A stretch of 64,000 nt of DNA from Methyloversatilis sp. XJ19-49 (GTDB taxonomy: Bacteria; Pseudomonadota; Gammaproteobacteria; Burkholderiales; Rhodocyclaceae). Below are positions 28,621-39,688 of the stretch, piece after piece (within the stretch, counting starts at the first letter, position 1; each line of letters opens with the position of its first letter). The stretch spans positions 253,550 to 317,549 of the forward strand of contig NZ_JANINI010000001.1 of NCBI RefSeq assembly GCF_024580145.1, read 5' to 3'. The notes below the pieces were generated by a model, which was not told the DNA's origin, did not search any database, and worked only from the letters and a program-made list of their open reading frames with translations. Position numbers and translations under genes: made by a program.

Positions 28621-28935
28621 TCACGATCCGACCGCCCCGGCTTCGCACTGCGCACCCAGTTCGCGCAGATAGGCCCACGGATAGATGCCGCGCCGGTGGC
28701 CGTCGGAGAACACGAGGTTCACGCCGGTGCCTGCCATTTCATGAACCTCCGTCAGCGCGACTTCGCTGCAGTCCTCCGGCGCCGCACCGGCGCGCGCCGC
28801 CTTCGTGCAGAAAGCGCAGCGGCAGCGCTGGCGCAGCAATGCATGGGACAGCGCGCTCTCGGTGTCGTCGTCCCACTCGATGTGCAACAGACGCGACGCG
28901 CTGTGCACCGTGATGCGCCTCGGCAGCGCACTCAC
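28621..28935 (-). CDS. DUF971 domain protein
   Basis: 104 residues, one DUF971 domain (the fold also found N-terminal in gamma-butyrobetaine hydroxylases and at the end of some Mrp/ApbC Fe-S carriers). Key features are HSASRLLHIEWDD, a Cys cluster in RCRCAFC, and GIYPWAYLREL. The cluster could bind zinc or iron. It is the last gene of the leftward accessory operon and overlaps the ABC ATPase gene by 4 nt, so it is translated with it. A role in Fe-S or metal handling for the flavoprotein/ferredoxin genes upstream is plausible but unproven. Confidence 0.8.
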   Translation of the reverse strand: MSALPRRITVHSASRLLHIEWDDDTESALSHALLRQRCRCAFCTKAARAGAAPEDCSEVALTEVHEMAGTGVNLVFSDGHRRGIYPWAYLRELGAQCEAGAVGS

Positions 28936-29801
28936 AGCATCGCGCCCACGCCTTCCGCGCCGACATGCCAGTCGTGCCCGGCCAGACCGCCTTCCTTCAG
29001 CTCGCCGCCCATGGCCGCGAGGCTTTCTTCGCGGATCAACGCCTTCAACTGACGGTGCAATGCGAGAAAGGTCGGCGACGAGGTCATTTCAGGCGTGCGC
29101 GGGCGCGGCAGCGGCACCGGAATTTCCGCCTTGATGCGGCCGGGGCGCGCGGTCATCACGTAGATCTTGTCCGACAGGAAGATCGCCTCTTCGATGTCGT
29201 GGGTGATGAACAGCACCGACAGCTGCAGCTGCTGCCACATATTGGTCAGGATTTCCTGCATCACCACGCGCGTCTGCGAGTCGAGCGCTCCGAAGGGCTC
29301 GTCCATCAGCATGACCTGGGGGCTGGTGGCCAGCGCGCGCACGATGCCGACGCGCTGCTTCATGCCGCCGGACAATTGCTCCGGATAGTGATTCTCGAAC
29401 GACAGCAGGCCGGCCAGCCCGAGCAGGGTGCGCGCTTTTGTTTCGCGCGCGCTGCGGCTGACGCCTTTCATCTTCAGGCCGAATTCGACGTTTTCGCGTA
29501 CGCGCAGCCAAGGAAACAGCGAGTACTGCTGGAACACCACGCCGCGGTCGGCACCCGGACCGCCGACCGGCGAGCCATCGACCGAAACGATGCCCTGATG
29601 CGGCTTCAGGAAGCCCGCGACAATGTTGAGCAAGGTCGATTTGCCGCATCCGGACGGCCCGACGATGGATACGAATTCACCGGGCTTCACGTCGAGCGAC
29701 ACCTCGCTCACCGCATCGAGCGGCACGCCGTTCTGGGTGAAGCGGACGCAGACATCGCGGATTTCGATGTGCCCCTTGCCGGGTACGGACGTGGCGTTCA
29801 T
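28932..29801 (-). CDS. ABC transporter ATP-binding protein (nitrate/sulfonate/taurine type)
   Basis: 289 residues. Walker A GPSGCGKST, Q-loop VFQQYSLFPW, signature LSGGMKQR, Walker B VMLMDEPFGALD and switch His in FITHDIEEA are all intact. The spacing and the LFPWL segment are typical of SsuB/TauB/NrtD-type importers. ATG at 29801 overlaps the permease stop by 4 nt. It powers the importer made with the permease and the binding protein encoded upstream. Confidence 0.9.
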   Translation of the reverse strand: MNATSVPGKGHIEIRDVCVRFTQNGVPLDAVSEVSLDVKPGEFVSIVGPSGCGKSTLLNIVAGFLKPHQGIVSVDGSPVGGPGADRGVVFQQYSLFPWLRVRENVEFGLKMKGVSRSARETKARTLLGLAGLLSFENHYPEQLSGGMKQRVGIVRALATSPQVMLMDEPFGALDSQTRVVMQEILTNMWQQLQLSVLFITHDIEEAIFLSDKIYVMTARPGRIKAEIPVPLPRPRTPEMTSSPTFLALHRQLKALIREESLAAMGGELKEGGLAGHDWHVGAEGVGAML

Positions 29802-30763
29802 CGCGTGTTCTCCTTGCCGACCGATACCTGCCATGGCATGGCGAGCCGGGCCAGCAGGCGGATGGCACCGCTGCACAGCAGACCCAGTACGCCGATGACG
29901 AGCATGCCGATCACGATGTGTGAATACTCGATCAGCGAATACGCTTCCCACGTGAAGTAGCCGACGCCGTACTGACCTGAAATCATCTCCGCAGCAATCA
30001 GCGATACCCATGCCACGCCCATGCCCACGGACAGTCCGGTGAAGATGTGGGGCATCGCGCCGCGCAGCACCACCTGGGTCATGAGTGCGTATTCGTTGGC
30101 CCCCAGGCAGCGCGCCGCCCGCACCAGCACGCTATCCATCGTCGCCACACCGTGCATGGTGTTCAGCAGGATGGGAAAAAAGGCGCCGAGAAAGGTGATG
30201 AACACGATGCTGGTTTCGGTGGTCGGCCACAGCATGATGGACATCGGCACCCAGGCGATCGCCGGTATCGGACGCAGGATTTCCATGGCGGGAAAGAGCA
30301 GCCCGCGTACTGTGCGGTAGCGTCCGATCAGCAGGCCGAAGCCCACGCCAAGCACCGTGGCCACGATGAAGCCGAGCATGATGCGACGCAGGCTGATCGT
30401 GATGTTGGTCATGAACTTCGGGTCGCCGAACAGGGCCAGTGCATCGCGATAGACCTCGACCGGCCCCGGGATGTGCGTGAAGCGGATGTAGAAATCCCAG
30501 CGATAGGCGGTCGCCAGATACCAGAAACCGATCAGCAGACCGATGGAAACGAGGGCCAGCAGCATTGCCGGCCCTTCGCTGCGCAACAATCGCCGGAATG
30601 CCGATGACCTGAGTGTGCCCACGGGAGCCGCTGTATCGGACCGTTCCACGTGCCTGACGGCGGGCGTAGCCGGCACCTCACGAAGCGATGTCGCGCCGTC
30701 GTCCGGCTCCGGCGCGAACGATCGCACGTCATCCGCGGGCTGAATCCTGATAGCGGTTCCCAT
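29798..30763 (-). CDS. ABC transporter permease (SsuC/TauC type)
   Basis: 321 residues. A hydrophilic N-terminal tail of about 60 residues is longer than usual. Six or so helices follow, with the EAA-type loop around GANEYALMTQVVLRGAMPHIF (Gly in the usual place). It is the only permease in the operon, so it presumably works as a homodimer. It follows the binding protein gene by 3 bp and overlaps the ATPase gene by 4 nt. Confidence 0.88.
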   Translation of the reverse strand: MGTAIRIQPADDVRSFAPEPDDGATSLREVPATPAVRHVERSDTAAPVGTLRSSAFRRLLRSEGPAMLLALVSIGLLIGFWYLATAYRWDFYIRFTHIPGPVEVYRDALALFGDPKFMTNITISLRRIMLGFIVATVLGVGFGLLIGRYRTVRGLLFPAMEILRPIPAIAWVPMSIMLWPTTETSIVFITFLGAFFPILLNTMHGVATMDSVLVRAARCLGANEYALMTQVVLRGAMPHIFTGLSVGMGVAWVSLIAAEMISGQYGVGYFTWEAYSLIEYSHIVIGMLVIGVLGLLCSGAIRLLARLAMPWQVSVGKENTR

Positions 30764-30766
30764 GGC

Positions 30767-32212
30767 TCACTTCCTTACCGTTGCGACGGCCAGTGCATCG
30801 GCATAGAGCCCCGCCTTGCCACCGTTGGCGGCGGCGTGCGCCTCTGCATCCTTCTTCAGCAGGAAAGGCACGATCTGCGTGGCGCCATCCTTGCTGACCA
30901 GCGAGTAGAAGGCCTTGTCGGCGAACAGCTTGATCTTGAAGGTCTGATCGAACACGAATGCCACCCCGACCTTCTTGCCGGATTCCGTTGCCTTGCGGAC
31001 CGCCGCCAGCGTGCAGTTGGCCGATTTGTAGGCGGTCAGCGCCCCGCCTTCTATCCAGACCTCGCCCGCCTCGCGCGGCGCCGTGATGCTGCCGCCGCAC
31101 AAGGGGTCGGTGCCCGAAATTTCATAACTCGAATAGCCGGCCTTCTGCGCCGCGTAGTCGAGCCCGAGTTCCTTGTAGGCCTGCATCACATAGGTTTCAT
31201 CGACCCACGCATCGGCGTCGAACTCCTTCACCCGGCCCATGCGGCTCAGCACGCCGTGGTCGTACTTCACCGTTTCGATCCACTTCGGCTTGATGGTGGG
31301 ATCCAGCGTATGGACACCGCTCGGGCCAAGGAACATGTAGGCGACCTCCTTCTCGACGCGGGTCCATTCCTCGATCTTCGTTGCCGCTTCAACCGGGTTC
31401 TTGCGTACCCAGTCGTTGGCTTCCATCAGCGCCTTGATGTAGGCGACGACGAATTCCGGATACTTTTTGGCGAAATCTTCGCGTACGACCACACCATGAA
31501 AGGTCGGCACCTTGGTTTCGACGCCGTCGAAAATCTTTCGCGCAAAGCCCCGATAGGGCAGCAACTCGGCGAACGGCACGAAGTCGGCATGGCCGTCGAT
31601 GCGCTTTTCCTGCAGATTCGACGTGCCGACCTCTGGGCTCTGGCTGGCCAGTTCCCAGTAATCGGACTTCCAGCCACGGTCTTCCATGGCCTTGAGCAGC
31701 ATGCCGTGCGCGGCGGAACCGAACGGCACCGACACCTTCTTGCCCTTCAGGTCGGACAGCTGGAAGTACGGCGAATCCTTGCGCACCACCATGCCGTTAC
31801 CGGCGCCATCGATGTTGTAGGCGATCAGCGCGATCAAACGACTTTTCGTTTCCGGCCCCGCCTGGAAGGTCGCGCCGTTCACCAGCAGCGGATAGTCACC
31901 CATCATGCCGATCTGCAGGGTGTTGGCCACCATGCCGTTGGTCACCGGCGGGCCCGAGGTGAAGTTCTGCCATTCGATCTTGAACTGCAGGTCCTTGTAC
32001 TTGCCGGTCTTCGGCAGGTGCTTTTCGAGCAGACCCAGTTCCTTGATGACGATGCCGCCGGTCACGGTGTTGGTCGTCGTGTTCTGCGTACCGATTCCCA
32101 CCGTGATCACCTCGGCCAGCGCGGCCGGCGCACAGAGGGCGATGGACATGCCCAGTGCGAACACGCGCGATACGGCAGCCAATCGATCGAAACCTGCATT
32201 CAGTGCATTCAT
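30767..32212 (-). CDS. ABC substrate-binding protein with NosL-like C-terminal domain
   Basis: 481 residues; ordinary NrtA/SsuA/TauA binding proteins have about 320-350. After a signal peptide (cleavage about AALA-EVIT), residues 35-330 form the NMT1/TauA-like binding fold. The extra C-terminal 110 residues begin at DPLCGGS (Cys372), with a second Cys in KSANCTLAAV. They end AFYSLVSKDGATQIVPF followed by DAEAHAAANGGK, which matches the end of the copper-binding protein NosL as I know it. This suggests a binding protein that also handles a metal or thiol ligand. The ATG at 32212 has GAGAGG 8 nt upstream; a GTG at 32221 is also in frame. Confidence 0.8.
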   Translation of the reverse strand: MNALNAGFDRLAAVSRVFALGMSIALCAPAALAEVITVGIGTQNTTTNTVTGGIVIKELGLLEKHLPKTGKYKDLQFKIEWQNFTSGPPVTNGMVANTLQIGMMGDYPLLVNGATFQAGPETKSRLIALIAYNIDGAGNGMVVRKDSPYFQLSDLKGKKVSVPFGSAAHGMLLKAMEDRGWKSDYWELASQSPEVGTSNLQEKRIDGHADFVPFAELLPYRGFARKIFDGVETKVPTFHGVVVREDFAKKYPEFVVAYIKALMEANDWVRKNPVEAATKIEEWTRVEKEVAYMFLGPSGVHTLDPTIKPKWIETVKYDHGVLSRMGRVKEFDADAWVDETYVMQAYKELGLDYAAQKAGYSSYEISGTDPLCGGSITAPREAGEVWIEGGALTAYKSANCTLAAVRKATESGKKVGVAFVFDQTFKIKLFADKAFYSLVSKDGATQIVPFLLKKDAEAHAAANGGKAGLYADALAVATVRK

Positions 32213-32312
32213 GGCGTTCACCTCTCCCTGTCAATTCAATAAAAGACGACGAAGTGCTGCTGCGGTTGTTGTTGCGGAAGCCTGTCTCCTGCCCAGCCCA
32301 TCCACCGCTTTT

Positions 32313-32648
32313 TCATGCGCCCTGAAGGGCGTCGAGGTACTGCCGTTTTTCGCTCACCTGGGCCCAGGTCTCGGCATCGGCGAGTGGTTCGTGTGCCTCG
32401 GCGATCACCGGCCACTGCGCTGCGAGACGCGCATTGAGCTCGATGAACACCTCCTGTCCTGCGGGCAGATCGTCCTGCGCATAAATCGCACTGACCGGGC
32501 ATTCGCTGACGCACACGCCGCAATCGATGCAGATGTCCGGGTTGATGACCAGGAACTCGGGGCCCTCGTGAAAGCACTCCACCGGGCAGATATCCACGCA
32601 GTCCGTGTACTTGCAGCGCACGCATGCTTCGGTCACGACATAGGTCAT
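32313..32648 (-). CDS. 7Fe/8Fe-type ferredoxin
   Basis: 111 residues, FdxA-like. Cys motifs: [18 protein letters not shown] near the N-terminus (the pattern of a 3Fe-4S plus 4Fe-4S ferredoxin) and [12 protein letters not shown], followed by a C-terminal extension of about 45 residues rich in Glu/Ala. AAGGAG stands 7 nt before the ATG. It lies between the HEAT-repeat and binding-protein genes and likely feeds or drains electrons for the AprA-like flavoprotein. The gap 32213-32312 before the binding protein gene shows nothing further. Confidence 0.88.
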
Positions 32649-32658
32649 GGCTTTCTCC

Positions 32659-33606
32659 TTATTTCTGCGCCAGGGTGATGGCGGTGAGCGCAAGCCGCGA
32701 CAGCTTGCGCACATCGGGATCGGCATCGCCGAGCGCCGCCTCGAGCGCCGGAATCGCGCGCGGATCGGCGATCTCGCCGAGGGCGATGGCGGCTTCCTTG
32801 CGCACGTTTCCTATCGTGTGGGTCAGCGCTTCGATCAGCGCCGGCAGTGCGGCGACGGCCTTGAGCAGACCCAGCGAGCGGGCGGCCTTCACGCGCACCT
32901 GCCAGTACTCGTCATGCATGGCGCGGATCAGGTCGGGAATGGCCAGACCGAGGCGCAGCTTGCCCAGGGTCTGGGCTGCCTCATCGCGCACCATCCAGGC
33001 GGTGTCGGCAAGACCACGCGTCAGCGCCGGCAGCACGCTCACCTCGCTGGAATAGCCGATGGCGCCGATGGCGATGCGCCGCACGTCGGCGTCCGCATCG
33101 AGTGCCGCCACCTGGGCCAGCGCACCGATCGCCTCCGGCATCCGCAGGTAGCCGAGTACCCCCACCGCCTCGCGCCGCACGCCGGCATCGGCGTCCTTCA
33201 GCGCCTCCATCGCCGGTGCGAAGGCTTCCGGCACGCGCAGCGCACGGATGGCACGAAGCGCCAGCATGCGCACCTCGGCAGAGTGGCCGTGCAAAAAAGG
33301 CAGCAATGGCACGGCGGACGCGCTTTCCTTCAGCTCGGACAGCACGACACCCGCCGCAGCGCGGACATCGGCATCGGCATCGAGCAGCATCGGGGCCAGC
33401 GCCGAAACCACCTCGGGCTCTTCGTAGCCCTCGAGCGCACGCACCGCTTCGGTCCGCACCGATGCATCCGGGTCGGCAAGGCGCGGCAGCAGCAGCGGCA
33501 CGATGTCGTCCTCGTCGCCATAAGGCAGGTCGATCACGGCGAGCCGCCGCACTTCCGCGTCCGCGCTGCCGAGGCGCTCGGCGACTGAACAGTTCTGGAT
33601 ATCCAT
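32659..33606 (-). CDS. HEAT-repeat (PBS-lyase-type) protein
   Basis: 315 residues composed almost wholly of about nine HEAT-like repeats of 31 residues, each with DADPDVR or DADADVR followed by a helix (for example [22 protein letters not shown]). There is no signal peptide and no visible Cys cluster. Such scaffolds bind partner proteins; in PBS lyases they aid chromophore attachment. Placed between two ferredoxin genes, it may help assemble or hold the flavoprotein-ferredoxin complex. GAGGAG lies 8 nt before the ATG, and the gene is 11 bp from each ferredoxin gene. Confidence 0.85.
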
Positions 33607-33617
33607 CGTCCGGCTCC

Positions 33618-33851
33618 TCAGCGCAGCAGGTAGGGAATCGACACGCTGACTGCGCCGGTCGGGCAATCGGTTTCGCACGGCAGGCAGTACCAGCATTCGT
33701 CGAACTTCATGAAGGCCTTCTTCGTCAGCATGTCGATGGCGAGCACGTCGAGCGGACAGACATCGACACAGACGGTGCAGCCCTTCTCGGCGATGCATTT
33801 GTCGTTATCGACATTCACCGGAACCTGGGTCTGCGTGGTGGCTATGGTCAT
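33618..33851 (-). CDS. Two-cluster 4Fe-4S protein, AprB-like but truncated
   Basis: 77 residues with two four-Cys sets: CIAEKGCTVCVDVCP and CWYCLPCETDCP. The spacing with an inserted EKG and the DECWYC segment resemble the ferredoxin core of adenylylsulfate reductase beta subunit (AprB). The long AprB C-terminal tail that wraps the alpha subunit is absent. It starts 39 bp after the AprA-like gene with GAGGAG upstream. It is the likely immediate electron partner of that flavoprotein. Confidence 0.85.
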   Translation of the reverse strand: MTIATTQTQVPVNVDNDKCIAEKGCTVCVDVCPLDVLAIDMLTKKAFMKFDECWYCLPCETDCPTGAVSVSIPYLLR

Positions 33852-33890
33852 GGCGTAACTCCTCTGGATTCGGGCGATGTGATCGGGGTG

Positions 33891-35621
33891 TCAGGCGGCT
33901 TCGGCGTTGTGCGCGACGCGCAGGCGCTGATAGGCGCTGCGCTCTTCCTCGTCGATCGGCACGATGTAGGGCTCGATGGCCTTCTTGCGCATCTGCATGC
34001 GGCCTTCCGCGCTCTTGCTCAGCAGCGAATGACAGAACCAGTTCTCGTCGTCGCGCTCCGGGTGATCGAGGAAATAGTGGTAGAGGCCCCAGCGGCTTTC
34101 GGTGCGGAACATCGATGCACGCGCCGCCATTTCCGCGCAGTCGAGAATGGAATGCGCTTCCATCGCACGCATCAGTTCGTGCGGGTTGGCTGCGAACATC
34201 GACTCGGCGTCTTCGCGGATCTCGTCGAAGCGACGCAGCGCGATCTCGTACTTGCGCGTGATCTTCGGCGGCTGCAGGTAGTCATTCACCAGGCGGCGCG
34301 TCTTGTACTCGATCTGGTAGGGCGTCAGCCCGTCGGTCCGGCCCAGCGGCGCGAGAATGCGGCGCTCCTCGGCGGCGACGTCCCCTGCATCGATCACGCC
34401 CTGGCCGTGGCCGGCGCAGTAGGCGGCGGCGTTCTCGCCGCACAGCCGGCCGTAGACGAAGGCCCCCAGCATGTAGTTGTGCGGCACGCTGGCGCAGTCG
34501 CCGGCGGCATACAGACCGGGCACCGACGTCTCGCCCATTGCGTTCGTGTGGATGCCGGACGCGCTGTGGCCGCTGCAGAAGCCGATTTCCGAGATGTGCA
34601 TCTCGACCATCTGCTTGCGGTAGTCGTTGCCGCGCTTCTCGTGGAAGCGGCCGCGGCTGGGCCGCTCGTTGGTATGCAGGATGGTTTCGATCTCCTGGAT
34701 CGTTTCTTCCGCCAGGTGGTCGAGCTTCAGGAAAACCGGGCCGTTGCCGCCTTCGAGTTCGTTGTAGAACTCCATCATCATCTGGCCGCTCCAGTAGTCG
34801 CATTCGATGAAGCGCTCGCCCTTGGAGTTGGCGGTGAAGCCGCCGAAGGGGCCGGTCACGTAGGCGCAGGCCGGTCCGTTGTAGTCCTTGATCAGCGGAT
34901 TGATCTGGAAGCACTCGAGATTGGCCAGATCGGCCCCGGCGTGATAGGCCATCGCGTGGCCGTCACCGCAGTTGGTCGGGTTTTCGTAGGTGCCCATCAG
35001 ATAGCCCGAAGCCGGCAGGCCGATGCGCCCGGCAGCACCGGTACAGAGCACCGCCGCCTTCGTGCGGATGACATAGGTGTCGGCGGTACGGCAGTCGAAG
35101 CCCATGACCGCCACGACTTCTCCATCCGCGCCGGTGAGCACGCGTGTCACGACCACCCGGTTGGTCACCTCGACACGCGCCTTCTTCAACTGGCGGTAGA
35201 GGATCTTCTTCATGTGATGCCCTTCGGGCATCGGCAGCACGTAACTGCCGAGGTGATGCACCTTGCGCACCGCGTAGTCGCCGGTTTCGTCCTTCTCGAA
35301 CTTGACGCCCCACTGATCGAGCTGGTTGATCATGTCGAAGCTGTTGGCGGCGTAGGCCATCACCGCTTCCTGATCGACGATGCCGTCATTGGCGATGGTG
35401 ATTTCCTTGACGTACTGCTCGGGCGTCGCATGGCCCGGAATGACCGCGTTGTTCAGGCCGTCCATGCCCATCGAGATCGCGCCGCTGCGCTTCACGTTGG
35501 CCTTGTCGACCAGCAGCACGCGCAGCTTCGGGTTCTTCTCCTTCGCCTTCACCGCGGCCATCGGGCCGCCTGTCCCGCCGCCGATGACGACGAGATCGAA
35601 TTCCAGGTCAATGCGCTTCAT
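33891..35621 (-). CDS. AprA-like FAD oxidoreductase (fumarate reductase/APS reductase alpha family)
   Basis: 576 residues. FAD motif DLVVIGGGTGGPMAA (about 9-23), then RSGAISMGMDGLNNA near residue 45, and a C-terminal GLYAAGDCASVPHNYMLGA. The layout follows adenylylsulfate reductase alpha and fumarate reductase flavoproteins. Where AprA proteins, as I recall them, have RFKDGYGP with a catalytic Arg, this protein has LIKDYNGP, so it is unlikely to reduce APS. It is cytoplasmic, with no Tat or Sec signal. AAGGAG precedes the ATG. It is the first enzyme gene after the GntR regulator and is followed by an AprB-like ferredoxin, a HEAT protein and importer genes. Substrate unknown. Confidence 0.75.
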   Translation of the reverse strand: MKRIDLEFDLVVIGGGTGGPMAAVKAKEKNPKLRVLLVDKANVKRSGAISMGMDGLNNAVIPGHATPEQYVKEITIANDGIVDQEAVMAYAANSFDMINQLDQWGVKFEKDETGDYAVRKVHHLGSYVLPMPEGHHMKKILYRQLKKARVEVTNRVVVTRVLTGADGEVVAVMGFDCRTADTYVIRTKAAVLCTGAAGRIGLPASGYLMGTYENPTNCGDGHAMAYHAGADLANLECFQINPLIKDYNGPACAYVTGPFGGFTANSKGERFIECDYWSGQMMMEFYNELEGGNGPVFLKLDHLAEETIQEIETILHTNERPSRGRFHEKRGNDYRKQMVEMHISEIGFCSGHSASGIHTNAMGETSVPGLYAAGDCASVPHNYMLGAFVYGRLCGENAAAYCAGHGQGVIDAGDVAAEERRILAPLGRTDGLTPYQIEYKTRRLVNDYLQPPKITRKYEIALRRFDEIREDAESMFAANPHELMRAMEAHSILDCAEMAARASMFRTESRWGLYHYFLDHPERDDENWFCHSLLSKSAEGRMQMRKKAIEPYIVPIDEEERSAYQRLRVAHNAEAA

Positions 35622-35706
35622 GTTCTCTCCTTGATTGGGACTGCACCGTCGCGCGTCGGCGCGCCGCTGCGATCGAAGAATTCCTGCGTTGCTTTCCAGT
35701 GGTGGA

Positions 35707-36486
35707 TCAACTTCGGTCGATGCGCAGGCGGTACTGGAAGGCGTCGCCGCGGTAGTAGAGAAATTCGAAATCGATGGGCCGGTCGTCGGCCCAGGTCAGT
35801 CGCTCTATGCGCAGCAACGGCGAGGCCTCGGCGATGTCGAGATGACGGGCCAGCGACTCGTCCGACGAGATCGCCTCGATCTGCACGTCGGCGTGCGTGA
35901 GGTTGCGTCCGAGGTCGTTTTCGAGAATGACGAAGATGTCTCGTGTGGCCAGGTCTTCCTGGGCGAGCCGTTCGCCGATGTCCGGCGGGAAGTAGCTCAC
36001 GTCGACCGAAATCGGTTCGCGGTTCAGGTAGCGCAGGCGCTGGATTTCGAACACCGGCGCTTCCGGCCTGAGCTGCAGCCGCTGTGCCACGACTGCGCTC
36101 GCGGGCACCGGTCTGGCACTGAGCAGCAGGGAGTAGGTTTCGTAGCCGGAGGTGGACATCGCCTCGCCGAATCCCTGCAGCCGCGACAGACTCTGGAAGG
36201 CCTTGGGCTTGGCGACGAAGCTGCCCTTGCCCATCACCTTGAAGATGAGCCCTTCCTTCTGCAGGTCGCCCAATGCCTGCCGGATCGTGATGCGGCTGAC
36301 GGCGAATGCCGAAATCATCTGGCTTTCCGATGGCATCTGCGAATGCGGCGGATAGCTGCCGTCGAGAATGCGCCGGCGCAGGATTTCGCGGATCTGCGTA
36401 TACAGCGGCATCTGCGATACCGGCGACAACGCATCCGCGACCTTGGCAGCGCCCGGGGGCGCGATCTGCTTGCGGTGGGGTGCCAT
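35707..36486 (-). CDS. GntR/HutC-family regulator with UTRA domain
   Basis: 259 residues. Winged helix at about 35-100 (LYTQIREILRRRILDG, SRITIRQALGDLQKEGL), UTRA effector domain about 115-250. UTRA domains bind small-molecule effectors and release the operator. AGGAG lies 8 nt before the ATG at 36486. The operator-like site 36508-36532 is 22 bp upstream, so self-regulation is likely. The gene leads into the flavoprotein gene across 85 bp on the same strand, so the whole operon to 28621 is probably under this protein. Confidence 0.88.
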   Translation of the reverse strand: MAPHRKQIAPPGAAKVADALSPVSQMPLYTQIREILRRRILDGSYPPHSQMPSESQMISAFAVSRITIRQALGDLQKEGLIFKVMGKGSFVAKPKAFQSLSRLQGFGEAMSTSGYETYSLLLSARPVPASAVVAQRLQLRPEAPVFEIQRLRYLNREPISVDVSYFPPDIGERLAQEDLATRDIFVILENDLGRNLTHADVQIEAISSDESLARHLDIAEASPLLRIERLTWADDRPIDFEFLYYRGDAFQYRLRIDRS

Positions 36487-36507
36487 GATCGATCTCCTGT
36501 TCGGGAA

Positions 36508-36532
36508 CCTGTTATGACGGGTCATGTCATGC
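36508..36532. promoter_or_regulatory. Operator-like site upstream of the GntR gene
   Basis: Contains the inverted repeat ATGAC-GG-GTCAT (36514-36525). 21 of 25 positions match the site at 37500-37524, and both lie 22-23 bp before a start codon on the minus strand. Likely the binding site of the GntR regulator. Confidence 0.65.
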
Positions 36533-36589
36533 AAGGTCAGTGCCAATTCTTCCGCCTCGCACCACATATCTATAAACCATTGCTTTTAA

Positions 36590-37477
36590 TCAACTTTTCA
36601 GACTTGACAGCACATCTTCCGCACCGATGCACGCACCGGTTTGCTGCACCGCGACAGGCGCTTGCACCAAAGCGGTCGCGTGCGCCGGCCAGGCCGCGAA
36701 CGCACCGGTGGCCATCAGCAGGCACAGCACGACACGACGGAAATGTCGCGGGTCCAGACTGCGATACAGACGCTCGCCCAACAGGCCGCCGCCATGAAAA
36801 AGGGGCGCCAGCAGAAGCCCCTGCAGCAGCAGCGACAAGCCGAACAAGCCGGACAGCACGATGGCAATCAGTGCCAGCGGATACAGGCATCCGAAGTACA
36901 CGAGGAAGCTGGCCCGCGCGCGATGACTGTCGGCTCCCACGCCCAGCAGGTAGAGGATGGCCGGCGGTCCGCCGACACCACCGAAGCCGGTCAGTACCCC
37001 GCTGAACAGTCCCGCTCCGATGGAACCGGCATGACTGGAGCCGCGCACCAGGCGTACGCCGGTCAGCAAGACCGCTGCGCTCGCGATGACCGCAAGGCCG
37101 ATCACCTGTCCGAACAGTCGCGCCGGCAACACGCTCACCAGCCACAGACCGAGCGGAATCCCGAAACACGCTGCGCCGAGCATGGGCAAAAGCACCCGGT
37201 GATCGACCATCCGCCGTACCGACGGCCCCAGCGCGTGGGTCAGCGGCAGCGCGTTCAGCAAGGTGACGATGCACAGCGTGTCGCGCGCCGACGCCACCGT
37301 GGACAGCAGGGGCGCCATCAGCAGCGCCGCGCCGAAGCCGGTCATGCCACGCAGCACGCCGCCTGCGACCACTGCACCGGCAATCACCGCCCAGCTCGCG
37401 ATGTCGCGGTCCGGCCACAGCGTGTTCAGCAGCGAAGCATCCAATCGGTTCTCCCGGGCGGGACAAGCGGCGCGCAT
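36590..37477 (-). CDS. TauE/SafE-family membrane exporter
   Basis: 295 residues with about eight membrane helices and the family repeats GVLRGMTGFGAALLMAP near the start and SGVLTGFGGVGGPPAIL in the second half. The family exports sulfite, sulfoacetate and related anions. I chose the ATG at 37477 because the longer ATG at 37507 would fall inside the operator-like site. No strong ribosome site is visible. The operator shared with the GntR gene makes this exporter part of the same regulon, though the two genes are separated by 103 bp and a second promoter is implied. Confidence 0.8.
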   Translation of the reverse strand: MRAACPARENRLDASLLNTLWPDRDIASWAVIAGAVVAGGVLRGMTGFGAALLMAPLLSTVASARDTLCIVTLLNALPLTHALGPSVRRMVDHRVLLPMLGAACFGIPLGLWLVSVLPARLFGQVIGLAVIASAAVLLTGVRLVRGSSHAGSIGAGLFSGVLTGFGGVGGPPAILYLLGVGADSHRARASFLVYFGCLYPLALIAIVLSGLFGLSLLLQGLLLAPLFHGGGLLGERLYRSLDPRHFRRVVLCLLMATGAFAAWPAHATALVQAPVAVQQTGACIGAEDVLSSLKS

Positions 37478-37499
37478 TCCGCGTCGGTGCGACGCCAAA

Positions 37500-37524
37500 C
37501 CTGTCATGACAGGTCATTTCAAGC
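37500..37524. promoter_or_regulatory. Operator-like site upstream of the TauE/SafE gene
   Basis: Contains ATGAC-AG-GTCAT (37506-37517) and an overlapping perfect palindrome TGTCATGACA. It matches the site before the GntR gene in 21 of 25 positions and lies 23 bp before the chosen start at 37477. Confidence 0.65.
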
Positions 37525-37672: not shown

Positions 37673-38683
37673 TCATGACAGCGCCCCGAGGCTGACCAGG
37701 CCGAAGCCGGCAAGCAACAGCCATATCCAGAGCAGCGCAGCGAGCGCCCACACCCGCCAGCCGGCCAGCGCCATGTCGGCCAGCCGGGTGTTCGCACCGA
37801 GCGCCGCCAGACCGACTGCCAGCAGCGCCTGCGCCGCTTCGGCACCCAGGGCGTGCAGCCACACTGGCAGCAGACCGGACGCATTGAGCGCCATCGTCGC
37901 GATGAAGCCGTAGAGGAAAAGCGGCACGCCCGGGCTGCACGAACCGGTCGTGCCGCCATCGCGCCAGCGGGCAGCGATCAGCATGACGACCGGCGCCAGC
38001 AACATCACGCGCATCATTTTCTCGACCAGCGCACTGGCGGCCGCGCCCGGTCCGGCCGCCTCAGCCCCGGCCACTACATGACCGAGTTCGTGCACCGTCA
38101 GCCCCACCCATAGACCGAAGGACTGATCACTCAAGCCCGTCAGGGGATGGAGAAGGGGCAGCAGATACATGCCCAGCGTGCCGAACACCACCACCGCCAG
38201 CACCGCCGCGGACACATGCCGTGCCCGGGCACCGATCACGCTGTCGGCGGCCGCAACCGCTGCGGCACCGCAGATCGCGCTGCCGCAGCCGACCAGCACG
38301 GCCAACTGGGGGTCGAGTCCGAGACGACGCCCCAGTGCCAGCGCCAGCCCGAGGGTGCTGAGCACCACGACCACCGCCATCAGCAGACCGCTCCAGCCCA
38401 CCCGGCCCAGTTCGTCGATGCCGATGCGCAGTCCGTACAAGGCGATGCCGGCGCGCATCAGGGTGCCGCGAGCCAGACGGAATCCTTCGGCGCCGCGCGA
38501 CGGCAGCGAAGGCCACAGATTGCCGATCACGATGCCCAGGGAGACCGCCAGGGGCAGCCAGCCAAAGCCGTATGCCGACACACCGGTCAGGCCGGAAAGG
38601 GCAGCCGCTGCACCGGCAACCGCGACCGACGCGGCAAGACCGGTCGGCAGGCTGGGCGGTGCGAGGGCAGTCGTCGTATTCAT
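37673..38683 (-). CDS. YeiH-family putative sulfate/sulfite exporter
   Basis: 336 residues, about ten helices. Family segments: GIVIGNLWP, AGIALYGLRI, GCGSAICGAAAVAA and LTVHELGHVVAG with conserved His and Glu. YeiH proteins are annotated as sulfate exporters; in enterobacteria the gene is controlled by YeiE, a LysR protein that senses sulfite. Here a LysR gene diverges from it across 99 bp, the same arrangement. An in-frame ATG at 38737 would add 18 residues. Confidence 0.85.
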   Translation of the reverse strand: MNTTTALAPPSLPTGLAASVAVAGAAAALSGLTGVSAYGFGWLPLAVSLGIVIGNLWPSLPSRGAEGFRLARGTLMRAGIALYGLRIGIDELGRVGWSGLLMAVVVVLSTLGLALALGRRLGLDPQLAVLVGCGSAICGAAAVAAADSVIGARARHVSAAVLAVVVFGTLGMYLLPLLHPLTGLSDQSFGLWVGLTVHELGHVVAGAEAAGPGAAASALVEKMMRVMLLAPVVMLIAARWRDGGTTGSCSPGVPLFLYGFIATMALNASGLLPVWLHALGAEAAQALLAVGLAALGANTRLADMALAGWRVWALAALLWIWLLLAGFGLVSLGALS

Positions 38684-38782
38684 GGGCGGGTCGCGGGCTG
38701 CAGAAAGTGAATGCAGCGTACGCGGCGAGCCATTCATTCTTCTATATCATGCAAATCACCATTCGATTACTTTGAGTAATAC

Positions 38783-39688
38783 ATGAACCTGCATCTTCTG
38801 CGCATCTACGTGAAGGTCGTCGAAGTTCAGAGCTTCTCGCGTGCGGCCGAAGCACTGAACATCACGCAGCCTGCTGTCTCGAAGGCGGTGCGTGAGCTCG
38901 AATCGCAGCTCGAAACCGTGCTGCTCGACCGCCGAGGCAAAACCTTCAAGCCCAGTGAGTCGGGCCGTGCGCTGTACGAATACGGGCGCAGCATCCTGGC
39001 GCTCGAACGGGAAGCGACCGAAACCATCCGCGCCTACAGTTCGCTCGAACGCGGGCGGCTGACCATAGGTGCCAGCACCACCATCGCCACTTACTGGCTA
39101 CCGCCCTTCCTGGTCGATTTCCACGCCCGCCATCCGCAGGTCGAACTGCAGGTGATCAGCGGCAACACGCGGCAGATCGCCGATCTGTTGCTGGACTGCC
39201 GAATCGATGTGGCACTGGTCGAAGGCGACGTGGATGATGCGCGCTTGAACCGCCGCGTCTGGCGCCGCGACGAAATGGTGATCATCGCGCCGCGCGATGC
39301 CGAATTGCCGACCGGCGGCGCGCTGCGGCCGGCCGATCTGGCTGATCACAGCTGGATCGTGCGCGAACGCGGCTCCGGCAGTCGCGCCGCCACTGACCGT
39401 GTGCTCGATGAAATGGGGCTGACGCCGGCACGCACGATAGAAGTGGGCAGCAATGAAGCCATCGTGCAGACCGTGGCGGCGGGACGCGGCCTGGGCATGG
39501 TGCCGCGCATCTGCGCGCGCGACCAGCTGGCACTGGGGCGCATACGCCGTCTGCACCCGGGCGGTGCGGCGATACAGCGCACGCTCTATCGCATCCGCCT
39601 GCCCGAACGCCCGATCAGCCCGGCCGCCCTCGCCTTCGAAGCCCTGTTTGCGAATGCGCAACCCTTGCCTGCCGAGGAATCGGCGTAG
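38783..39688 (+). CDS. LysR-family regulator, YeiE-like
   Basis: 301 residues. N-terminal winged helix (LRIYVKVVEVQSFSRAAEAL, TQPAVSKAVRELE) and a two-lobe effector domain from about residue 90 (GRLTIGASTTIATYWLPPFL). The opening of the effector domain is like that of YeiE/CysL-type regulators. It is divergent from the YeiH-like exporter gene, and the 99-bp gap should hold both promoters. It probably activates the exporter in response to sulfite or a related anion; this rests on family and position. Confidence 0.82.
   Translation: MNLHLLRIYVKVVEVQSFSRAAEALNITQPAVSKAVRELESQLETVLLDRRGKTFKPSESGRALYEYGRSILALEREATETIRAYSSLERGRLTIGASTTIATYWLPPFLVDFHARHPQVELQVISGNTRQIADLLLDCRIDVALVEGDVDDARLNRRVWRRDEMVIIAPRDAELPTGGALRPADLADHSWIVRERGSGSRAATDRVLDEMGLTPARTIEVGSNEAIVQTVAAGRGLGMVPRICARDQLALGRIRRLHPGGAAIQRTLYRIRLPERPISPAALAFEALFANAQPLPAEESA

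Follow-up and report, generated by a model that had tools for sequence, protein, structure and literature searches.

A linked flavoprotein, ferredoxin and HEAT-repeat gene module with an ABC importer in Methyloversatilis sp. XJ19-49 and its possible role in sulfur acquisition

Layout of the gene run

A stretch of 64,000 nucleotides (nt) from Methyloversatilis sp. XJ19-49 (contig NZ_JANINI010000001.1 of assembly GCF_024580145.1, positions 253,550-317,549), referred to here as the window, contains an operon-like run of nine genes, all leftward, from 36486 to 28621. The run combines a regulator, a flavoprotein related to AprA of adenosine 5'-phosphosulfate (APS) reductase and to 3'-phosphoadenosine 5'-phosphosulfate (PAPS) reductase, two ferredoxins, a HEAT-repeat protein, an ATP-binding cassette (ABC) importer and a DUF971 protein. 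Domains were assigned with Pfam and NCBIfam models. An earlier account made from the letters of the DNA (the sequence-only reading) had described nine leftward genes with short gaps or 4-nt overlaps, and all nine were found, as were both overlaps (permease/ATPase and ATPase/DUF971). The other intergenic gaps measured 3-39 nt, except for 85 nt between the GntR and flavoprotein genes and 91 nt between the FdxA and binding-protein genes. A GntR start at 36486 is preferred because an operator-like site lies directly upstream of it, within the longer open reading frame (ORF). The features, with lengths in amino acids (aa), are as follows:

36507-36524, minus strand: operator-like site TGACCCGTCATAACAGGT before GntR; in related loci the same motif precedes GntR, the flavoprotein or TauE
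35707-36486, minus strand: GntR/UTRA (HutC-like) regulator, 259 aa, ATG at 36486; UTRA 131.9 bits, GntR 62.8 bits (scanned as 35707-36567)
33891-35621, minus strand: flavoprotein of family PRK08275, kin of AprA and PAPS reductase, 576 aa; NF006131 match, closest solved structure 8a8o
33618-33851, minus strand: dicluster ferredoxin fd1, 77 aa; Fer4_7 34.5 bits, above the cut-off of 27
32659-33606, minus strand: HEAT-repeat protein, 315 aa; HEAT_2 166.5 bits
32313-32648, minus strand: FdxA-type ferredoxin, 111 aa; NF045490 154.2 bits, above the cut-off of 135
30767-32221, minus strand: substrate-binding protein, GTG start; SsuA/TauA-like fold (about residues 36-350) and NosL-like C-terminal domain (about 370-480)
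29798-30763, minus strand: ABC permease, SsuC/TauC/NtrB-like; BPD_transp_1 79.7 bits
28932-29801, minus strand: ABC ATPase, TauB/SsuB/NtrD-like; ABC_tran 113.9 bits, taurine and nitrate ATPase models below cut-off
28621-28935, minus strand: DUF971 (GBBH-like_N) protein, 104 aa; PF06155 75.4 bits

The HEAT protein contained four HEAT_2 stretches. The small ferredoxin, previously called AprB-like, did not prove specifically so, scoring 35 bits with the aprB model against a cut-off of 135.65 and 39 bits with HgcB. The second ferredoxin was present as described and turned out to be an ordinary FdxA.

Family and active-site residues of the flavoprotein

The flavoprotein passed NCBIfam PRK08275 (NF006131) with 1062.8 bits, well over the curated cut-off of 587. 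It failed the AprA model TIGR02061 (161.7 bits against a cut-off of 641.75) and the FrdA/SdhA models PRK06069 and TIGR01812 (172 of 826 and 170 of 567.3 bits, respectively). Among solved structures, the alpha subunit of PAPS reductase 8a8o ranked first (E 2.7e-54), followed by AprA and then by fumarate reductases. According to PMC10322725, the 8a8o enzyme of Methanothermococcus thermolithotrophicus yields sulfite. As in AprBA, its flavin adenine dinucleotide (FAD) subunit belongs to the fumarate-reductase superfamily and is joined by a small ferredoxin subunit with two clusters, an arrangement resembling the window pair. Unlike either of these enzymes, the window operon adds importer, HEAT and DUF971 partners. 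No SdhB-type gene was found within the operon, where the flavoprotein partner is the small dicluster ferredoxin. Model scores and partner genes together rule out a typical fumarate or succinate enzyme. Public records and the NCBI family name nevertheless read fumarate reductase/succinate dehydrogenase flavoprotein; this label is not supported by the present analysis and is probably wrong. The PRK13800 model also matched the window HEAT protein, at 89.7 bits.

Residues were compared with five of six AprA reference loci, four of which were shortened at the N-terminus with the compared segments intact. The roles of the AprA active-site residues, and the numbers Arg317 and His398, are those we take to apply to the Archaeoglobus fulgidus enzyme; the other AprA numbers were counted on 2fja. 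Arg265 and Trp234 of AprA were replaced by Leu243 and Tyr212, respectively, and the Arg317 segment (LRNHA) was absent, whereas His398 was retained as His352. Among 116 family members, the motifs NPLIKD and SGHSASG each occurred in 115 and LRNHA in none. Many invariant residues were peculiar to the flavoprotein in a set of 21 sequences 72-88% identical to that of the window. In a tree with six AprA rows, which carried warnings for long branches and composition, the PRK08275-type proteins formed a clade apart from AprA and from the proteins of the CH34 type discussed below. The predicted model of the flavoprotein was poor (predicted local distance difference test, pLDDT, 63.8) and was not used.

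These findings bear out the claim that the flavoprotein is AprA-like without the catalytic arginine segment, both substrate arginines being gone. APS reductase is ruled out by the TIGR02061 score and the absent arginines, and the residue pattern makes a substrate other than APS likely. Three further flavoproteins from the order of the window (L016, L017 and L018) kept the AprA arginine motifs and branched with true AprA. A sister clade (L012-L015, loci L162-L165) combined an AprA-like flavoprotein with a two-cluster ferredoxin and represents a further uncharacterised pair.

Linkage and distribution of the module

Genome contigs, one genome per species, contained at least 588 stretches related to the flavoprotein at E<=1e-3. 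The best 80 of these, 72-100% identical to the window flavoprotein, were taken on, and the identical protein was found in a Methyloversatilis metagenome-assembled genome (L038). Plasmid records with the module, drawn from 40 of 55 and from 60 of 71 records, came from Acinetobacter, Acidithiobacillus caldus, rhizobia, Methylobacterium, Methylocystis, cyanobacteria and Tsukamurella. The flavoprotein exceeded the family cut-off in 11 of 200 genomes of the order, and the PRK13800 model was matched at E<=1e-150 in 21 of 398 genomes of the phylum, the own genome being counted in both cases. The module is therefore sparsely but broadly distributed.

Genes were called in 130 loci; loci that did not exceed 4 kb or had no training match, L011 and L051 among them, were dropped. 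Partners were counted in 116 loci, all numbered from L031 on (17 plasmid loci, 79 of the 80 contig loci and 20 further genome stretches), as matches anywhere in the locus to hidden Markov models built from the loci themselves at E<1e-5 (E<1e-10 for TauE and YeiH). The flavoprotein, fd1 and the HEAT protein occurred together in all 116 loci, which had been picked by the flavoprotein. GntR was present in 99, a binding protein of this kind in 97 (a count that may take in ordinary SsuA-like proteins), DUF971 in 92 and FdxA in 37. Less frequent were ferredoxin-NADP reductase (32), YeiH (28), Crp/Fnr (17), TauE (7) and an Nfn-like reductase (5).

The 116 loci come from beta-, alpha- and gammaproteobacteria, from Acidithiobacillus and cyanobacteria, and from one actinobacterium. 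The gene-order table placed the module genes side by side, with differences in order and regulator type. Loci of named beta- and gammaproteobacteria, of Acidithiobacillus and of Tsukamurella had a GntR regulator; Crp/Fnr stood in its place in several alphaproteobacterial loci and a LysR-like regulator in two cyanobacterial loci. An Mrp/NBP35 family gene followed the HEAT gene in three cyanobacterial loci, its domains having been tested in one. In Tsukamurella, the flavoprotein and the HEAT protein were fused as one 893-aa protein. This fusion and the constant core agree with the proposal that the genes form one shared set. The sequence-only reading had named two findings that would speak against it, separately distributed genes and an ordinary APS or fumarate reductase. 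Neither was seen, since the core genes travelled together in the neighbourhood survey and the flavoprotein lacks the AprA arginines, with scores and partner genes pointing the same way.

Promoter sites and putative sulfite exporters

Four features beside the operon bear on its regulation and on a link to sulfite:

36590-37477, minus strand: TauE/SafE sulfite-exporter-family protein, start presumably at 37477; PF01925 83.8 bits (scanned as 36590-37507)
37499-37516, minus strand: operator-like site TGACCTGTCATGACAGGT before TauE, the final 16 bases being a perfect palindrome
37673-38737, minus strand: YeiH-family putative sulfate/sulfite exporter; PF03601 236 bits, TIGR00698 209.6 bits, below the cut-off of 232.6
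38783-39688, plus strand: LysR regulator divergent from YeiH; best NF040786 222 bits (cut-off 250), then NF040889 YeiE 189 bits (cut-off 480)

The LysR gene was YeiE-like by score and fell under every cut-off shown. Two sites of one pattern were found in the window, before GntR and before TauE, the latter overlapping the start of the longer TauE ORF. Two matches were reached in 1 of 100 shuffles; the low chance expectations in the window are not an independent test because the patterns were drawn from the two sites themselves. In 15 of 51 related loci, TGACNNGTCA lay close to the start of GntR, compared to 0.005 expected per locus. Related loci, 2.27 Mb in total, contained 19 copies of the 18-base form TGACNNGTCATNACNNGT, always beside GntR, flavoprotein or TauE; in L044 and L058, for which the automatic assignment gave a different gene or none, the copy was placed by coordinates, before TauE and before the flavoprotein, respectively. 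This form, ACNNGT-N4-ACNNGT, is an inverted repeat, and in 9 of the 19 copies the two arms were complementary throughout. The site stood before TauE in the window and also in L038 and L044.

Among the 89 wide-flank loci, YeiH (19 genes) and TauE (6 genes) always lay on the strand of the flavoprotein. The YeiH gene described here was the single match to PF03601 in its genome, and a sample of 100 genomes from the order contained the family in only 32. Sulfonate genes stood near single loci, namely an FMN monooxygenase with an SsuA-like importer, ssuD with TauD, and a luciferase-like (LLM) monooxygenase, in one locus each. Sulfite or another sulfur anion had been suggested as product from the neighbouring exporters, and this suggestion is strengthened by the site common to the GntR and TauE promoters and by the adjoining, only YeiH gene of the genome.

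The importer and its binding protein

Genes for a binding protein, a permease and an ATPase were all present, so the importer is complete, as had been supposed. The binding protein scored under the cut-offs of SsuA_fam (116.4 of 163.5 bits) and taurine_ABC_bnd (74.8 of 304.25 bits). Its predicted model was good (pLDDT 85.9), and in fold comparison the top five rows were SsuA or TauA proteins with Z 29.6-30.5, a root-mean-square deviation of 2.3-2.7 and 280-288 aligned residues. The comparison spanned mainly residues 35-364, which makes the absence of NosL structures from it uninformative on the C-terminal domain. The importer thus shares binding-protein fold and permease and ATPase families with SsuABC and TauABC. 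It differs from them in scoring below the sulfonate and taurine model cut-offs shown and in the extra NosL-like domain. By predicted fold and family, its substrate may be a sulfonate-like (R-SO3) compound.

Taken alone, the C-terminal domain of the window protein matched NosL (PF05573) with E 0.0037 and 18.1 bits, where the Pfam cut-off is 24 bits. Related C-terminal domains, the one in the window included, matched NosL at E<=0.1 in 36 of 39 cases (best 8.6e-10), and one cyanobacterial member reached 24.1 bits. A PF05573 search of the own genome gave no match, which indicates only the distance of the window domain from the model. NosL binds metal through cysteine and methionine ligands. Two cysteines were present in the window domain and at least two in 15 of the 39 related domains, with none in 24. 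The metal or thiol ligand that the sequence-only reading drew from the NosL-like domain is weakly indicated.

An ABC transporter that by eye is of sugar type, with binding protein c14, the long ATPase c13 and permeases c22/c23, adjoined the module in two distant groups and is a candidate second importer. One comprised L129, L143, L145 and L146, of which L129 branches with Mesorhizobium L034; the other comprised L072-L075 and L083, from Ralstonia and kin.

Electron supply

Ferredoxin-NADP reductases shuttle electrons between NADPH and ferredoxin. In many betaproteobacterial loci the gene after DUF971 encoded such a reductase, which scored 159 bits with PRK10926, below the cut-off of 390, and matched Pfam FAD_binding_6 and NAD_binding_1 above cut-off. 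A PRK06567-related reductase, about 1150 aa long, also related to the GltD/PyrK type and in our view similar to NfnAB, stood after the module at L033 10574-14035, L088 16048-19602, L094 16277-19708 and L095 16294-19704. It was also present on the A. caldus plasmid pTcM1, and takes the place of the ferredoxin-NADP reductase. Since one or the other reductase lies beside the core in part of the loci, the electrons probably come from NAD(P)H; their direction would be towards the flavoprotein. In the host genome, Fpr is encoded elsewhere (59% identity). Genes for the beta and alpha subunits of electron transfer flavoprotein followed the module in betaproteobacterial L044, L054, L056, L058, L060 and L062.

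Proposed function

We tentatively propose that the module serves sulfur acquisition by importing a sulfonate-like compound, releasing sulfite from it reductively and exporting the surplus, an account to which we incline without holding it firmly. The SsuA/TauA-type importer, judged by fold and family, would take up an R-SO3 compound. Gene content suggests that electrons would pass from NAD(P)H through a ferredoxin-NADP reductase or Nfn-like reductase to FdxA, the dicluster ferredoxin and the FAD of the flavoprotein, which the HEAT protein may hold as a scaffold. The flavin, acting in the manner of AprBA and PAPS reductase within a rebuilt anion pocket, would then free sulfite from the substrate. 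DUF971, or Mrp/NBP35 in its place, may serve iron-sulfur loading. The GntR/UTRA regulator presumably binds the palindromic sites ahead of its operon and ahead of TauE, and TauE with YeiH would remove surplus sulfite.

Several points weigh against this proposal. Both AprA substrate arginines are lost, and S-O(P) chemistry is therefore not simply transferable. Iron-sulfur/flavin reduction of this kind would be unusual in aerobes. The window operon itself contains no ferredoxin-NADP reductase gene, TGACNNGTCA was absent in 36 of 51 loci with GntR directly upstream, and 69 of the 89 wide-flank loci had neither TauE nor YeiH. Binders of bicarbonate, nitrate and pyrimidine type came after SsuA/TauA in the fold ranking. 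The 116 loci are related, many being from Burkholderiaceae, so that the counts are not independent. The sister clade, by eye, stood beside AraC-like genes and genes for tripartite-type transporters, a context that suggests organic acids for these relatives; neither this context nor the AprA reference set revealed a substrate.

A bolder form of the proposal, which we regard as speculative and rather unlikely to hold in full, is that the flavoprotein is an oxygen-independent, AprA-related flavin/ferredoxin desulfonase that cleaves a C-S (or S-N, S-O) bond in an imported sulfonate reductively with NADPH electrons in aerobic soil and water bacteria and cyanobacteria, overlooked under the name of fumarate reductase. 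If true, release of sulfite from sulfonates without oxygen would be a new route into a major soil sulfur pool, and AprA chemistry would no longer be confined to nucleotide sulfates. Despite the label in public records, sulfur is indicated by the partner genes, by the relatives in fold and by the promoter sites, and the common site and compact core make the function directly testable.

Comparison with asf and alternative explanations

The review PMC4267179 describes asfRABC as a LysR regulator, a reductase/ferredoxin pair, a binding protein and an ABC importer, which in Pseudomonas putida S-313 are required for aromatic and not for aliphatic sulfonates; asfA mutants of this strain lose aromatic sulfonate use (PMC4267179, citing Vermeij 1999). 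The window module likewise joins reductase, ferredoxin, binding protein and ABC importer in a sulfur context. It differs in its regulator, AsfR being of LysR type whereas the window operon is headed by GntR/UTRA and its LysR gene is divergent from YeiH. The genome paper of C. metallidurans CH34 places AsfA/AsfB on the second large replicon. The claim that no characterised pathway has such a gene set held in that no description of the set or its function was found among the papers listed in searches of open-licence literature. The characterised asfABC system, of similar layout, had been missed, as had the wide distribution of the module.

The CH34 megaplasmid record, which we take to be the replicon holding AsfA/B, contained matches to the window flavoprotein of at most 26% identity (49 bits), the next being 25%. 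Identity of the module with asfABC itself was thus not upheld, and the module, by this comparison, resembles asf in layout and is probably not asf. An AsfA-like match in the own genome was likewise no better than 26%. Two candidate AsfA/B pairs were found on the megaplasmid, in which 2Fe-2S ferredoxins were sought in two stretches only. One, at 928 kb, comprised a flavoprotein (about 25%), a 111-aa dicluster ferredoxin and importer genes; the other, at 895 kb, a flavoprotein (26%) and a 221-aa frame with 2Fe-2S and 4Fe-4S motifs. The 928-kb pair is the favoured candidate because its ferredoxin was the sole short frame of the six that matched Fer4. Rmet_4334/5 would by gene number presumably lie near 760-800 kb, which counts against the 928-kb pair; that interval held one Fe-S frame of 439 aa and no flavoprotein-ferredoxin pair. 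Relatives of the 928-kb flavoprotein were found in 4 of 119 genomes of one family in the same class, perhaps the Pseudomonadaceae. Both L158 and L159 showed the order flavoprotein-ferredoxin-binding protein, and L158 also had a LysR gene.

It is possible, though doubtful, that the flavoprotein and ferredoxins only deliver electrons to another enzyme, an oxygenase that would cleave the C-S bond, a role that has been proposed for AsfA/AsfB. Such an electron-supply role agrees with the layout of asfRABC, with the phenotype of the asfA mutants and with Paraburkholderia largidicola, in which genes for an LLM monooxygenase, a thiol dioxygenase, a rhodanese and an acyl-CoA dehydrogenase come after the module. 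However, the conserved core contained no oxygenase, the many invariant residues of the flavoprotein itself are odd for a mere carrier, a search of the window's genome for SsuD (TIGR03565) gave no match, and the low identity to the CH34 flavoproteins also argues against it. In detail, the genes after the P. largidicola module (L127 18616-25692) were those for an LLM monooxygenase, an aldolase, a 3-mercaptopropionate dioxygenase and a rhodanese, continuing with LysR, binding-protein and acyl-CoA dehydrogenase genes; these gene kinds also occur near the CH34-type flavoprotein-ferredoxin pair in L158.

Apart from AprA, members of the superfamily mostly carry out C=C redox reactions. The flavoprotein could instead reduce or dehydrogenate an unsaturated organic acid as an enzyme of fumarate-reductase type, and the sulfur genes could be coincidental or serve a sulfonated carboxylate. 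Such a role would fit this general background, the NCBI family name and the transporter genes beside the sister clade. It is an unlikely explanation, since the closest solved relatives are PAPS and APS reductases, the operon includes an SsuA/TauA-type binder and TauE shares the promoter site. Least probable, and hardly to be expected, is sulfite detoxification, in which the flavoprotein would oxidise or remove sulfite and TauE and YeiH would be co-regulated exporters; the TauE site and the adjoining LysR/YeiH pair suit it, but a dedicated importer, a UTRA regulator and electron-donating partners do not, nor do the many wide-flank loci lacking both exporters.

On a Nostoc plasmid (L120 11980-19389), genes for a HAD hydrolase, a methyltransferase, a GNAT protein and a VOC protein were found between the flavoprotein gene and the ferredoxin and HEAT genes.

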